This document shows, one piece after another, positions 1-57,740 of a DNA stretch of 57,740 bases. A program made the translations under genes and the position numbers. The stretch is taken from assembly GCA_018817385.1 (NCBI GenBank), contig JAHIUA010000073.1, positions 1 through 57,740 of the forward strand, written 5' to 3'. Below the pieces are notes generated by a model. The model worked only from the letters and a program-made list of their open reading frames with translations. It did not search any database and was not told the DNA's origin. This DNA comes from Pseudomonadota bacterium. Lineage in GTDB: Bacteria > Desulfobacterota > Desulfobulbia > Desulfobulbales > Desulfocapsaceae. Positions within the stretch are counted from its first letter, which is position 1; every line of letters starts with the position of its first letter.

Positions 1-141
1 ATCTGCTGCAAATTTGACAAATCGGCCCATATTTCCATGGCTTTTCGTTAAATAGACCTGCTATTCGCCTCAAATCCATGAAAATCTGGTCTCGATTTCT
101 CTAATTTTCGCTACGATTCTCTAAATCCGACAGACTCCTAG
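1..141 (-). repeat. MITE-like dispersed repeat, copy 1 (cut by window start)
   Basis: This stretch is the reverse complement of the sequence at 57601-57740, with only a few mismatches, and it also matches 7514-7660. Its outer end at 124-141 reads AATCCGACAGACTCCTAG, which is the terminal inverted repeat with a flanking CTAG. The other end lies outside the window. No transposase reading frame fits in it. It is best read as a non-autonomous element mobilised in trans. Confidence 0.8.
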
Positions 142-2152: not shown

Positions 2153-4429
2153 TCATGAATCTTTTTTTATCTCCAAATCGGCAAGTCGCTTACGAACTAA
2201 TTTAGCCTTTGGTGATTTGATCGTCTCGAAAATGGCCAGCGCCTGGCTATGATACTCAATGGCTTTCTCATACTGGCTCATTGAGCTGTAAGCATTTCCT
2301 AATCCATCTAAAGCATGTCCTTCCCCTTGACGGTTGCCGATTTCACGAGCAATGGATAAGGCCTGTGTATAATAATCACTGGCCTCCTGGTACTGGTAAA
2401 GGTAGAGGTGAGTAGTTCCCAGGTTGCCTAAAAAAGTGCCTTCCCCACTCCGGTTGCCGATTTCACGAGCAATGGATAATGCCTGTATATAATAGTCGAT
2501 GGCCTTCTCGTATTGACGAAGATAGAGGTGAGTAGTTCCCAGGTTGCCCAACAAGGTGCCTTCCCCGCTCCGGTTACCGATCTCACTGGCAATGGTCAGG
2601 GCCTGCATATAATAGTCGCTGGCCTTCTCGTACTGGCTGATTGAACTGTACGCATTCCCCAACCCACTTAAAGCATGTCCTTCCCCCTGACGGTTGCCGA
2701 TTTCACGCGCAATGGCCAGGGCCTGTATTTGATATTCGGTGGCCTTTTCGTACTGACCAATTGAACGATAGGTATTTCCCAGGTTTCCTAAAGCATCTCC
2801 TTCTCCCCAGCGGTTGCTGATTTCACGCGCAATGGCCAGGGCTTCTATCTGATATTCGGTGGCCTTTTCATACTGACTCATTAAATGGTACGTACTCCCC
2901 AGGTTTCGTAACGCTTCTTCTTCCCCTTGGCGGTTGCCGATTTGACGCGCAATGGTCAAGGCTTGTGTCTCAAAATAAATGGCCTTCTCATACTGACCCA
3001 TTGAACGGTAGGTGTGGCCCAGCTTTCCTAAAGAATCTCCTTCCCCCCAGCGGTCGGCGATTTCACGGGCAATGGCCAGTGCCTCTACCTGATACTCAAT
3101 GGCCTTCTCAAACTGGCTCATTGCCTGGTAAGTACTCCCCAGGTTTCGTAATGCATTTTCTTCTCCCCGGCGGTTGTCGATTTTACGGGCAATGGCCAGG
3201 GATTGGCTCTGAAACTCAAAGGCCTTGTCATAGAGGCCAATTGAATGGTAAGCACTTCCCAGGTTACCTGCACAAATTCCCTCCTCTCTCCGGTTGTCGA
3301 TCTCGCGAGTAATGGTTAGGGCCTGTGTCTGATAGTCAATGGCCTTGTCAAACCGGCTCATTGCCTGGTAAGTACTCCCCAGGTTTCGTAACGCATTTTC
3401 TTCCCCCTGGCGGTTTCCTGTTGCATGAGCAATGGCCAGGGCTGGTGTCTGATACTCGATGGCCTTCTGGTACTGATTGATTGAACAGTAAGCACTTCCC
3501 AGTCCGTCCAAAAGAATTCCTTCCCTGTCCCGGTTGCCGATCTCACGAGCAATGGCCAGGGCCTGGGTATAATAGTCGATGACATTCTCATACTGATGAA
3601 GGCATAAGGAGGTCGTTCCCAGGTTGCTTAATAAAGACCCTTCTCTACTCCGGTTGCCTAGGCTACGAGCAATGGACAGTGCTTGGGTCTGACAGTGGAG
3701 GGCCTTCTCATACTGGCTGATTGAACCATAACTCCTCCCCAGGTTCCCTAATAAATCTTCTTCTCTCTTCTGGTCGTCGATCTCACGAACAATGGTCAAG
3801 GCCTGGTCATGATAAAAAATGGCCTTCTCATGCTGACTCATTGAACCGTAAAGGCTTCCCAATCCACTTAAGGCATATCCTTCTCCTTGTCTGTTATGGC
3901 TCTTCCTGGAGAGACGGAAAGCTACTATGTAGTCCTGTCTGGCTGATTTGAAGTTACTGATGAGGCTATAACTATTGCCTCTGGCAATATGAAAAGATGG
4001 TGTCTGAAGTAGTTCAAGGGCTTGGTCAAAGAGTGGGATGGCCTTTGTCAGTTGCTGGTTGTCATACGCTTCGATACCCTTCTGATATGCTTCTAATGCT
4101 TGCTGTTGTTTGTTTGTAACTGTGGCGTTCAGTTCTCTTTCTATCTCACCTTTTGTTTCTGCTGCTGATGGGTTTATAGGTTTTTCAGCCACATACAGTT
4201 GTATTATCTCTTCAACTTCTGTTTGAAGAGCACGTTGTTGTTTGAGGGAGTTCATGAGCGGAAAAATGCTATTTAAACTAACGACAACAACAATGAGAAG
4301 AGATGTCTTTTGCAAGGCCAACTGGCCTGCCTGATGATTGCTTGTTTTGTCTGTTTGATAAGTATAATGGATGACTAAGATGCTGACGACACCGATTACG
4401 AGACTTATAACGAGAGAGGTTATGTCCAC
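2153..4429 (-). CDS. membrane-anchored protein with about 14 forty-residue TPR units
   Basis: This 758-residue protein begins with two hydrophobic stretches (about residues 5-22 and 43-60), then a linker of about 50 residues. A first TPR-like unit follows (QALEAYQKGIEAYDNQQ). About 14 consecutive 40-residue units then carry the pattern GEG-ALxxLGxxYxSxxQYEKAIxYxxQALxIAREIGNR. This is the kinesin-light-chain/LGN type of TPR, usually a protein-binding scaffold. The DNA repeats with a period of exactly 120 bp. The start is a GTG at 4429 with GGAG seven bases upstream. No partner is evident nearby. Function is unknown beyond a likely scaffold role at the inner membrane. Confidence 0.85.
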   Translation of the reverse strand: MDITSLVISLVIGVVSILVIHYTYQTDKTSNHQAGQLALQKTSLLIVVVVSLNSIFPLMNSLKQQRALQTEVEEIIQLYVAEKPINPSAAETKGEIERELNATVTNKQQQALEAYQKGIEAYDNQQLTKAIPLFDQALELLQTPSFHIARGNSYSLISNFKSARQDYIVAFRLSRKSHNRQGEGYALSGLGSLYGSMSQHEKAIFYHDQALTIVREIDDQKREEDLLGNLGRSYGSISQYEKALHCQTQALSIARSLGNRSREGSLLSNLGTTSLCLHQYENVIDYYTQALAIAREIGNRDREGILLDGLGSAYCSINQYQKAIEYQTPALAIAHATGNRQGEENALRNLGSTYQAMSRFDKAIDYQTQALTITREIDNRREEGICAGNLGSAYHSIGLYDKAFEFQSQSLAIARKIDNRRGEENALRNLGSTYQAMSQFEKAIEYQVEALAIAREIADRWGEGDSLGKLGHTYRSMGQYEKAIYFETQALTIARQIGNRQGEEEALRNLGSTYHLMSQYEKATEYQIEALAIAREISNRWGEGDALGNLGNTYRSIGQYEKATEYQIQALAIAREIGNRQGEGHALSGLGNAYSSISQYEKASDYYMQALTIASEIGNRSGEGTLLGNLGTTHLYLRQYEKAIDYYIQALSIAREIGNRSGEGTFLGNLGTTHLYLYQYQEASDYYTQALSIAREIGNRQGEGHALDGLGNAYSSMSQYEKAIEYHSQALAIFETIKSPKAKLVRKRLADLEIKKDS

Positions 4430-5938: not shown

Positions 5939-6836
5939 ATGGGGTTCTCGGGTGGCTCAAAAACAATAAGCATGGGGGAGCTTTCACTTTGCTACAGCAA
6001 TGAGGGGAATGAGAGAATGATGCAAGATACTTCAGGATTAATTCACCTTAAAGGGGATCTTTTTATGGTGGCCGAGGACAACAGTGACTGCATACGTTTT
6101 TTTTTCTTTGAACACCGATGATCAAGACAACCTGCGTTTCCAGGCAATTGGACAAGATTTGGACCTTGGCGGGAGGACAGCAGGGAATTCGGATTTTGAG
6201 TCCTTAGCTCGGATTGGGGATTCATTTTTTGTTATCGGAAGCTATAACGCACCGGAACGCAAGAAACTCCTGCGTTTTCAAGTCAATGGCACTACCTTGA
6301 CAGTCCCTCCACTGAGCATCTCCTTTGATCCAGCAGTCCACTTTCCAAGAGAAGAGATTGATATCGAAGCCCTGAGCGCTTTTCGCCAGCATATATTGCT
6401 GGTGGGATTCCGAAAGCTGCTCTTGCAGGGGAATGCTCCAGCCATATTCTTGCACACAGAGACCTTGGAAAGAGATATCCGTTATTTTGACTTGCGGCAA
6501 AGGGCATTTCGGGATTGCGTACCCATCAATGACGACAATTTCCTCATTCTCGCCGGTCCAGTGAGCGGAAAAAAACCTCAGCGTCGGATTTACTCATGGA
6601 ATGGCGATCTTGATGATGTTCGACCGCAAAAGTGTCGGATTGATCTCGGCGACCTTCGAGGGGAGGGGATCTGTGTCCGCCCAGGCCCTGGTGATGATTC
6701 TCTTGAAATCCTCATAGGGACTGATGAGAGTCGTGGCAGCGGCGGAAATTTTGAGCTGGCTACCCTCAAGGTGAAAAATATACTTGAATTATTAGAGAAG
6801 AGAAATAAGCTAAAGAATGTTAGGGTGTCTGTTTAG
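5939..6836 (+). pseudogene. DUF3616-type gene interrupted by a frameshift in a T9 run
   Basis: Two adjacent frames make one protein. The first, up to 6121, ends with DTSGLIHLKGDLFMVAEDNSD and CIRF, the usual N-terminal strand region of DUF3616 proteins. The second, from about 6084 to 6836, continues SLNTDDQDNLRF and carries the rest of the domain, including DLRGEGICV. Removing one T from the T9 run at 6097-6105 joins the frames as CIRFFSLNTDDQ. The start is uncertain (ATG at 5939 or 5972, neither with a good ribosome site). The run could be a sequencing error, a real pseudogene, or a slippage site. The stop TAG is the outer base set of a repeat fragment at 6834-6872. Confidence 0.65.
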
Positions 6837-6872
6837 GAGTCTGGCGCATTTAGAGAATCGTAGCGAAAATTT
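6834..6872 (+). repeat. MITE-like repeat, truncated copy 2 (one end only)
   Basis: TAGGAGTCTG followed by CATTTAGAGAATCGTAGCG matches the first 37-39 bp of the dispersed repeat with two mismatches, then similarity stops abruptly. It begins at the stop codon of the DUF3616-type gene. Confidence 0.75.
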
Positions 6873-7047
6873 CCTGCCGGACAAAGCAATTGTGTTTTGG
6901 GAAAATGAAAGCAGGCTCTTGTCTCATGAAATTTCCAGGGAGGCATTCATTATCGCGCTCGAATAGCGTTTATTCAGGCGGCTACCCGTTGAGTGATCAT
7001 TGGGATTACTCAATGCAAAGATAACATGAACAGAGGAGGAATCAATT

Positions 7048-7503
7048 ATGGAACGTTTCAGAAAAATTGGGTTACTCGTTATTTGTATTTTCATCGGCTA
7101 TGGTCTGCTGCCCACACAAGGGTATAGCCATTGCCAGATTCCATGTGGAATATATGATGACTCCGCCCGTGTTGAAGCAATGCTTGAAGATGCTGCTACT
7201 GTTGAAAAAGCAGCGAAATTGATTGCTGAATTAGCTGGCAAGTCTGACGCCCAATCGCAAAATCAATTGGTTCGCTGGGTGATGAATAAAGAACAATATG
7301 CCCAGAAGATTATTGCTACAATCAATGACTATTTTTTAACCCAACGGATTAATCCTGGCCAAAAAGACTATGCAGAGCGTTTGGCCAAACATCACGCAGT
7401 GATAATTGCGGGAATGAAAGCTAAGCAAAATGCTGATGTGAGCTACGCAATATCTTTAAAGGAAAGTATTGAGGCCTTGCATGCATATTACCCTGATCAT
7501 TAA
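7048..7503 (+). CDS. sodN: exported nickel superoxide dismutase
   Basis: This 151-residue protein has a hydrophobic leader (about residues 7-21) ending TQGYS, followed at residue 28 by HCQIPCGIYDD. That matches the nickel hook HCxxPCGxY of Ni-SOD, where the free amino group of His1, the His1 side chain, Cys2 and Cys6 bind nickel. Cleavage after Ser27 would expose exactly this His and leave about 124 residues, close to the usual mature length of about 117. The enzyme dismutates superoxide. Actinobacterial Ni-SOD is cytoplasmic and its propeptide is cut by SodX; here no sodX is seen and a signal peptidase would do the maturation. AGGAGG precedes the ATG. A full MITE copy starts 10 bp after the stop. 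Confidence 0.9.
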   Translation: MERFRKIGLLVICIFIGYGLLPTQGYSHCQIPCGIYDDSARVEAMLEDAATVEKAAKLIAELAGKSDAQSQNQLVRWVMNKEQYAQKIIATINDYFLTQRINPGQKDYAERLAKHHAVIIAGMKAKQNADVSYAISLKESIEALHAYYPDH

Positions 7504-7513
7504 TATTTTCCAT

Positions 7514-7672
7514 GAGTCTGTCGGATTTAGAGAATCGTAGCGAAAATTAGAGAAATCGAGACCAGATTTTCATGGATTTGAGTCGAATAGAAGGCCTATT
7601 TAACGAAAAGCCATGGAAATCTGGGCCGATTTGTCAAGTTTGCAGCAGATTTATGTCTAAGTCCGACAGGAT
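7514..7672 (+). repeat. MITE-like repeat, complete copy 3
   Basis: This copy shows both ends. The left end reads GAGTCTGTCGGATTTA and the right end, read on the other strand, GATCCTGTCGGACTTA, so the element has terminal inverted repeats of about 16 bp. The unit is about 159 bp and non-coding. The interior matches copies 1 and 5 with roughly 5% mismatches. No clear target duplication is seen here. Confidence 0.82.
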
Positions 7673-7675
7673 CCC

Positions 7676-57072: not shown

Positions 57073-57600
57073 AACTCCTCCTTCTGTTAATTTTATTTTG
57101 TGAGGTGTATCGGGATGCTCCTGTCGACCTCCTTTGTTGGCGCAGGGTGGTAATCGATACGGGAAATTTCATCTTTTTTATATAGTTATTAAATGATATC
57201 AATATGCTATAGCTAGCAACAATAGAGTTACAGGCAGGGAATCCTGCTTTTTCCTCAGTTAATCGGCAGGAGCCATTGTGCTGTGGTTTTCCCGGCTGCT
57301 GTATTCCTCTTACATGGGGAGGGAATAGCCTTGATCGGGGCAAGTCCTGTCGCCATATAGAGACTCTATTGAAGACTTATTGGGAGGGATGTCAAGGGTT
57401 ATTTCGTAAGTGAAATACAGCATTGTCGCCTGTAGTACATAAGTGTAATTAAAAAGCAGTTTTGTTGTAACCTGGGCGAGCTGTTACTGTTCAGGTTCTG
57501 GAAAGAAAGCTGTTGGCAGGAACATGGTATTGATAAACAATTTTATAACTGAATTTTATTTAGAAAAAAGGAGAGACCCTAAAGGGGGATACTACCGTTT
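57073..57600. other. 528 bp without a supported gene
   Basis: This holds the upstream region of the exported-protein gene. Only short AT-rich stretches and a small palindrome TATTTC-N6-GAAATA near 57400 are seen. Nothing can be named. Confidence 0.5.
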
Positions 57601-57740
57601 CTAGGAGTCTGTCGGATTTAGAGAATCGTAGCGAAAATTAGAGAAATCGAGACCAGATTTTCATGGATTTGAGGCGAATAGCAGGCCTATTTAACGAAAA
57701 TCTATGGAAATATGGGCCGATTTGTCAAATTTGCAGCAGA
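57601..57740 (+). repeat. MITE-like dispersed repeat, copy 5 (cut by window end)
   Basis: Starting CTAGGAGTCTGTCGGATTTA, this copy matches copy 1 in inverted orientation with only a few mismatches. The right end of the element lies just beyond the window. Confidence 0.82.

Follow-up and report, generated by a model that had tools for sequence, protein, structure and literature searches.

A nickel superoxide dismutase precursor with a predicted Sec signal peptide directly before its nickel hook, from a widespread branch of the family with no sodX-type gene beside it

The window analysed here, a 57,740-nucleotide stretch of a Desulfocapsaceae draft genome (5.38 Mb, 105 contigs, completeness given as 100), carries on its forward strand an intact open reading frame of 151 codons with an ATG start, as translated from positions 7048..7503. 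Its product matches the Pfam model Sod_Ni (PF09055) over residues 27–150 with 129.2 bits, against a curated cut-off of 25, and is the sole Sod_Ni match of the whole genome. The features of the locus are as follows:

6834..6871, forward strand: end fragment of a MITE-like repeat, 38 bases, upstream of sodN (incidental)
7034..7039, forward strand: ribosome-binding site AGGAGG, 8 bases before the ATG, read directly
7048..7503, forward strand: sodN of the Sec type, encoding a nickel superoxide dismutase (Ni-SOD) precursor of 151 residues (PF09055, 129.2 bits)
7048..7128, forward strand: putative export signal of 27 residues, which signal peptidase I is predicted to remove by cutting after Ser27 (hydropathy, −3/−1 rule, leave-out matrix)
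7129..7155, forward strand: nickel hook HCQIPCGIY, residues 28–36, in which His28 would become His1 (translation, aligned relatives)
7129..7500, forward strand: predicted mature four-helix-bundle domain, 124 residues, 13.9 kDa
7514..7674, forward strand: nearly complete MITE-like repeat (full length 166 bp) on the downstream side of sodN (incidental)

The leader, MERFRKIGLLVICIFIGYGLLPTQGYS, is followed immediately by HCQIPCGIYDD. It has Lys/Arg near its start, a 12-residue hydropathy peak of 2.75, and Gly and Ser at positions −3 and −1, that is, by rule, the basic start, hydrophobic core and small −3/−1 residues of a signal peptidase I substrate. A preliminary description of this DNA had placed an export signal directly before HCQIPCGIY, and this is borne out by the translation, by the Sod_Ni score and by the same layout in the relatives described below.

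We compared the window protein with a set of 164 distinct mature Ni-SOD sequences, which fall into two types: those with an HCD..PC..YDP hook (HCD type, n=14) and those with an HC[EQ]..PC hook (Sec type, n=150). Named genomes supplied 80 loci, the best 80 of 565 confirmed, recruited by the patterns HC[EQ][IV]PCGI or NQ[LI][VI]RW[VI]xN. Of the 150 distinct sequences of the Sec type, 79 come from these loci and 71 from Pfam-model searches; loci L029 and L030 are identical in reading. The frameshifted locus L095 (53 residues) is counted among the 150 for its leader and is excluded from the 149 used for the Cys and His-tail counts. Draws from whole phyla with the Pfam model form the least biased part of the sample.

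The window protein is predicted to fold as a four-helix bundle of the NiSOD kind; residues 1–3 have pLDDT values below 50, so that the geometry of the hook cannot be read from the predicted structure. An alignment of 51 mature sequences, among them that of the window protein, shows hook residues His1, Cys2, Pro5, Cys6 and Gly7 to be invariant and Tyr9 nearly so. Residue 84 (mature residue 57) is Tyr in the window protein, His in most relatives and, in Streptomyces, the Arg of KEQRAE, which we take to be Arg47; a motif count, with 17 sequences unmatched, finds Tyr at this position in 3 of the 150 Sec-type sequences. Against the NCBIfam sodN equivalog TIGR02753, the window protein scores 40.2 bits, under the cut-off of 90, a first sign that it lies outside the textbook branch. 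One could argue from this score that the exported branch has ceased to be a Ni-SOD and serves instead in copper, zinc or nickel storage, sensing or delivery, which would be compatible with the same export and cut. The replacement of the Streptomyces Arg points the same way, as does the presence of at least two His in the last 10 residues of 81 of 149 Sec-type proteins and of none of the 14 HCD-type proteins. However, the hook residues and the predicted fold appear to be retained, and the Arg is replaced in both aligned HCD-type rows as well. We regard this alternative as unlikely, although it fares best among those weighed here.

The evidence for an exported Ni-SOD lies first in the junction between leader and hook, which is fixed across the Sec type. 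The −3/−1 rule holds exactly before His1 in 147 of the 150 distinct rows, the three exceptions having Thr or Pro at −1, whereas cuts moved 1–6 residues upstream conform in only 17 to 50 rows; shifts of +2 and +6 pass as well because Cys was scored as small, and cleavage at either would ruin the hook. From −8 to −4, the commonest residue at a position never occurs in more than 35 of the 150 rows. The leaders of the two types differ in hydropathy, with a median of 2.53 in the Sec type (n=150) against 0.96 in the HCD type (n=14), and their ranges barely meet (Sec minimum 1.50, HCD maximum 1.53). A hydrophobic leader lies directly before His1 in all 80 named loci (best 80 of 565 confirmed). Among 96 related genomes, our own included, 17 have sodN; in 15 of these a hydrophobic leader directly precedes the hook, and the remaining two have a weakly hydrophobic propeptide. 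This recurrence in the named loci and the related genomes argues that the junction is not a product of chance.

A leave-out matrix places its top site before His in 135 of the 150 Sec-type rows and misses it in 15; its training set consisted of leaders aligned at His, which makes it a consistency check rather than an independent prediction. For the window protein, it gives 8.8 bits before His and 2.4 bits at the next site, about 6 bits behind. The preliminary description had proposed that cleavage after Ser27 would both export the enzyme and create its N-terminus, and Ser27 indeed emerges as the best predicted site from the rule test and the matrix. This site, with Gly at −3 and Ser at −1, falls short of AxA in strength; the rule would also allow cleavage after Gly25 (Gly at −1, Thr at −3), which would leave Tyr-Ser before His. 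Signal peptidase might thus cut slightly upstream, for example after Gly25, with an aminopeptidase trimming the product to His1, and 47 of the 150 rows do conform at this two-residue shift. Conformity is, however, much more frequent directly before His (147 of 150), and in the window protein that site also has by far the better score, which makes trimming improbable. The strong hydrophobicity of the leader could also suit an uncleaved membrane anchor carrying a hook without the usual nickel binding, but an anchor would have no need for the residues found before His in 147 of 150 rows, where −1 is Ala, Ser or Gly and −3 is small or aliphatic, and we give this view slighter credence still.

The propeptides of the HCD type end AxA-like too (14/14), so the junction by itself cannot tell the general signal peptidase LepB from SodX. 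The two peptidases seem to read the same −3/−1 rule, and we infer that the hydrophobic core of the leader sets the compartment. The types are separated further by the presence of sodX. A locus profile seeded from four of the HCD-type loci, applied to the fetched flanks (at least about 1.5 kb, shorter where a contig ends), finds a sodX-type open reading frame in the same fetched locus for 14 of 14 HCD-type and 0 of 150 Sec-type sequences. These 14 sodX-type products have 19-residue hydropathy maxima of 0.5–1.6, compared with 2.46 for the genome's own signal peptidase I; the lack of a strong membrane segment fits a soluble enzyme. The window protein departs from the form processed by SodX both in its leader peak (2.75 against the HCD maximum of 1.53) and in its hook (HCQ and YDD).

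At the level of whole genomes, the NCBIfam SodX model finds some match at E ≤ 0.001 in 39 of 67 sodN-bearing genomes and in 4 of 14 control genomes, since signal peptidases and related peptidases score as well. Full-length SodX-type matches in open reading frames of at most 161 residues are confined to 9 of the 67 genomes, each beside an HCD-type sodN and separated from its match by 82 to 132 bases, and only one of these nine short frames passes the curated SodX cut-off. In this profile search, such a short full-length match thus occurs in 9 of 9 HCD-bearing and 0 of 58 Sec-only genomes (Fisher p = 2e-11 for sodX against type, with genomes that are not independent and types that differ by one split). 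The SodX-model matches of Sec-only genomes sit in frames of 156 to 455 residues; by eye, the three best are a membrane signal peptidase and two LexA-kind repressors, and the 156-residue frame, in genome G108, holds a partial match. Tabulated by leader type and sodX, as the preliminary description had suggested, the homologues show leader type tracking sodX presence across the family.

That description had also reported no sodX, and this holds genome-wide: a profile search of the draft genome, which covered sodX-type peptidases encoded elsewhere, finds none over the family cut-off. Three weak rows of 17–19 bits fall in two open reading frames of 236 and 281 residues. The former was rejected as SodX, being an ordinary signal peptidase I (PF10502, 187.5 bits, contig C66), and the genome accordingly encodes this enzyme. 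The least probable alternative, in which a SodX-like protease was overlooked and the product is cytoplasmic, could appeal to an assembly of 105 contigs and to SodX models that are short and score weakly (one of nine frames over the curated cut-off), but it faces a completeness given as 100 and a search that succeeded in every HCD-bearing genome and in no Sec-only one, the partial match in G108 aside.

Based on the leader, its junction with the hook and the sodX contrast, we propose with considerable confidence that the window sodN encodes the precursor of a Ni-SOD and that its leader is a Sec signal peptide of the ordinary kind. The precursor would cross the membrane unfolded, and signal peptidase I (LepB) would cleave it after Ser27, freeing His1, whose amine and imidazole, together with Cys2 and Cys6, would make up the nickel hook. 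Nickel would be bound outside the cytoplasm, and the enzyme, presumably a hexamer, would clear superoxide from the periplasm or the cell surface. The preliminary description had envisaged a different maturation route and location for this protein. The sequence comparisons support the route, but it is not special to this genome and instead marks a clade found in many phyla.

Several observations bear on the compartment. Mature proteins without Cys beyond the hook make up 93 of 149 in the Sec type and 1 of 14 in the HCD type, which fits export to a place where stray thiols get oxidised. On the other side, the hook could be damaged in the periplasm by copper, zinc or the formation of disulfides, and the proposal raises the question of how its thiolates would acquire nickel in the envelope amid such competition. 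Our genome, whose host the preliminary description took for a likely anaerobe, encodes one Fe/Mn-SOD and one superoxide reductase of the desulfoferrodoxin kind, in which no signal peptide is visible; a profile search of the genome gives no match to CuZn-SOD (SodC). The fold and metals of CuZn-SOD are unrelated to those of Ni-SOD, and periplasmic SodC resembles the window protein as an exported SOD of the envelope, as we infer for the latter. Replacement of SodC by the Sec-type SodN was considered and rejected, as SodC occurs in 3 of 65 genomes with a Sec-type SodN and in 1 of 13 sodN-less relatives, which is no contrast.

Both sodN types occur together in 7 of the 67 genomes (those of loci L036, L055, L058, L070, L071, L087 and L089). 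In one of these, G117, they lie on one contig, which speaks against a mixed assembly there. Among cultured bacteria, Alteromonas sp. 5E99-2 carries both types and Desulfogranum mediterraneum the Sec type. The seven two-type genomes, most of them draft or single-cell genomes, give no match to Fe/Mn-SOD or CuZn-SOD. More generally, 36 of 58 Sec-only genomes have an Fe/Mn-SOD (one of the 36 a fragment with a stop), compared with 0 of 9 HCD-bearing genomes, a contrast weakened by the small or incomplete state of several of the latter (G017 88%, G034 70%; four of the seven two-type genomes below 2 Mb). In the sampled genomes, then, absence of Fe/Mn-SOD goes with the SodX type only, and from these sequence data the Sec type seems to coexist with a presumably cytoplasmic SOD while the SodX type replaces it. 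We are inclined, by a narrow balance, towards a wider reading in which Ni-SOD split once, into a cytoplasmic form matured by a soluble S26-type SodX and an envelope form matured by the general signal peptidase, whose export would coincide with creation of the active site and whose nickel would be inserted outside. The two-form bacteria (7/67, from several phyla, with no Fe/Mn- or CuZn-SOD detected) would then depend on nickel for protection against superoxide in both compartments.

A tree of the mature domain without the hook (149 rows, leaving out L095 and 14 near-duplicates of other rows, 15 of the 164 distinct sequences in all) places the two types on the two sides of one branch with an SH-aLRT of 100, requiring one type change compared with 13.5 in shuffles; 69 of its 146 inner branches are open and many forks are unresolved. 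As the types part at a single split, the contrasts between them are not independent events. Judged by record title, the named loci (best 80 of 565 confirmed) span Desulfobacterota, Pseudomonadota, Verrucomicrobiota, Planctomycetota, Campylobacterota, Fusobacteriota, Acidobacteriota, Neomarinimicrobiota and others. In the phylum draws, sodN was found in 21 of 395 genomes of our own phylum (20 Sec, 1 HCD), in 6 of 398 genomes of the phylum of G128 (2 Sec and 5 HCD genes, G128 itself adding one of each) and in 46 of 288 genomes of the phylum of G140 (44 Sec, 0 HCD among the 44 of 46 inspected, two truncated ones being left out). On this sequence evidence, the window gene is an ordinary member of a large, widespread and little-discussed branch of Ni-SOD.

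Within the tree, the window protein groups with proteins of Oceanospirillales, Acidobacteriota, Desulfosarcina and Desulfogranum, apart from the HCE-type proteins of its own family. In its own genus, sodN occurs in 2 of 20 genomes, and the second, G017 (locus L006), has an HCD-type sodN with an adjoining sodX-type gene; this genus probably acquired the two types in separate events. The G+C content of sodN is 41%, compared with 50% for the window and 46–55% for four other measured genes, and horizontal gain is the likely source of sodN in this genome. As to vehicles, viral spread of sodN was not confirmed in any case, and plasmid spread was met in one record. Desulfogranum mediterraneum is the closest named order-mate, and its protein (L038) is identical to that of G088.

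Compared with the SodN/SodX system of Streptomyces, the window protein shares the Sod_Ni domain, the HCxxPCxxY hook and the four-helix bundle (its own being predicted), but has a Sec-like leader, no sodX-type gene found and a predicted extracytoplasmic location; the Sec type also differs from Streptomyces SodN in having Gln or Glu rather than Asp as hook residue 3 and Asp rather than Pro at position 11. A Ni-SOD bearing a signal peptide is already in print. In the 2025 study of 'signal strapping' (PMC12537917, used here in part), a search query that retrieved many Ni-SODs consisted of the Roseiconus lacunae Ni-SOD signal peptide and a His directly behind it, the order also seen in the window protein. 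In the parts of that paper examined, the four characterised families are others and no Ni-SOD is assayed, and neither 'sodX' nor 'maturation' occurs in the main text. According to the same parts, in LPMO, CopC and others one cut exports the protein and makes a metal-binding N-terminal His (PMC12537917), as proposed here for the Ni-SOD; these differ from the window protein in their folds and in their copper or other metal sites. Additionally, the Ilyobacter polytropus protein WP_013389192.1, annotated as superoxide dismutase [Ni], is about 40% identical to the window protein, is encoded on a 0.96-Mb plasmid and has a leader ending in LFA followed by HCEVPCG.

The literature ties active Ni-SOD to SodX. 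In the portions consulted, one paper restates the SodX route of maturation (PMC3919588), and a 2021 survey suggests that Ni-SOD may not be usable for cyanobacteria that have sodN but lack sodX (PMC8346466). We found no description of Ni-SOD maturation by signal peptidase in the open-licence literature, with subscription reviews and early sodN surveys beyond its scope. In the Sec-type clade, a missing sodX would be expected and no defect, and surveys that pool all sodN genes would mix two proteins with different partners.

The flanking mobile-repeat copies pointed out in the preliminary description are real; they have no visible role in maturation and belong to a genome-wide family. The MITE-like repeat is about 166 bp long with near-perfect 15-bp terminal inverted repeats (TAGGAGTCTGTCGGA ... 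TCCGACAGGCTCCTA), and sodN is flanked by 35-bp direct repeats. Copies also lie at window positions 1–140 and 57600–57740, and the core gives 71 matches genome-wide, of which no fewer than 11 lie in the first 140 bases of a contig. Between 6800 and 7800 no terminator-like site was found, and the single promoter-like match (7131–7158) lies inside sodN and scores below the chance mean; a tie between the repeats and sodN function was rejected on these grounds. Clustering of neighbouring open reading frames of 90 codons or more at 79 of the 80 named loci (best of 565) gave no family with more than three members within 500 bp of sodN, and a conserved neighbour as nickel or export chaperone was accordingly rejected. 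On the reverse strand of the window, 2153..4429 encodes a 758-residue protein made mostly of tetratricopeptide repeats, with a hydrophobic N-terminal segment ahead of them. Finally, some Sec-type proteins have long His-rich C-terminal tails (e.g. L060, L099 and L224), and such His-rich C-termini possibly serve in metal capture.
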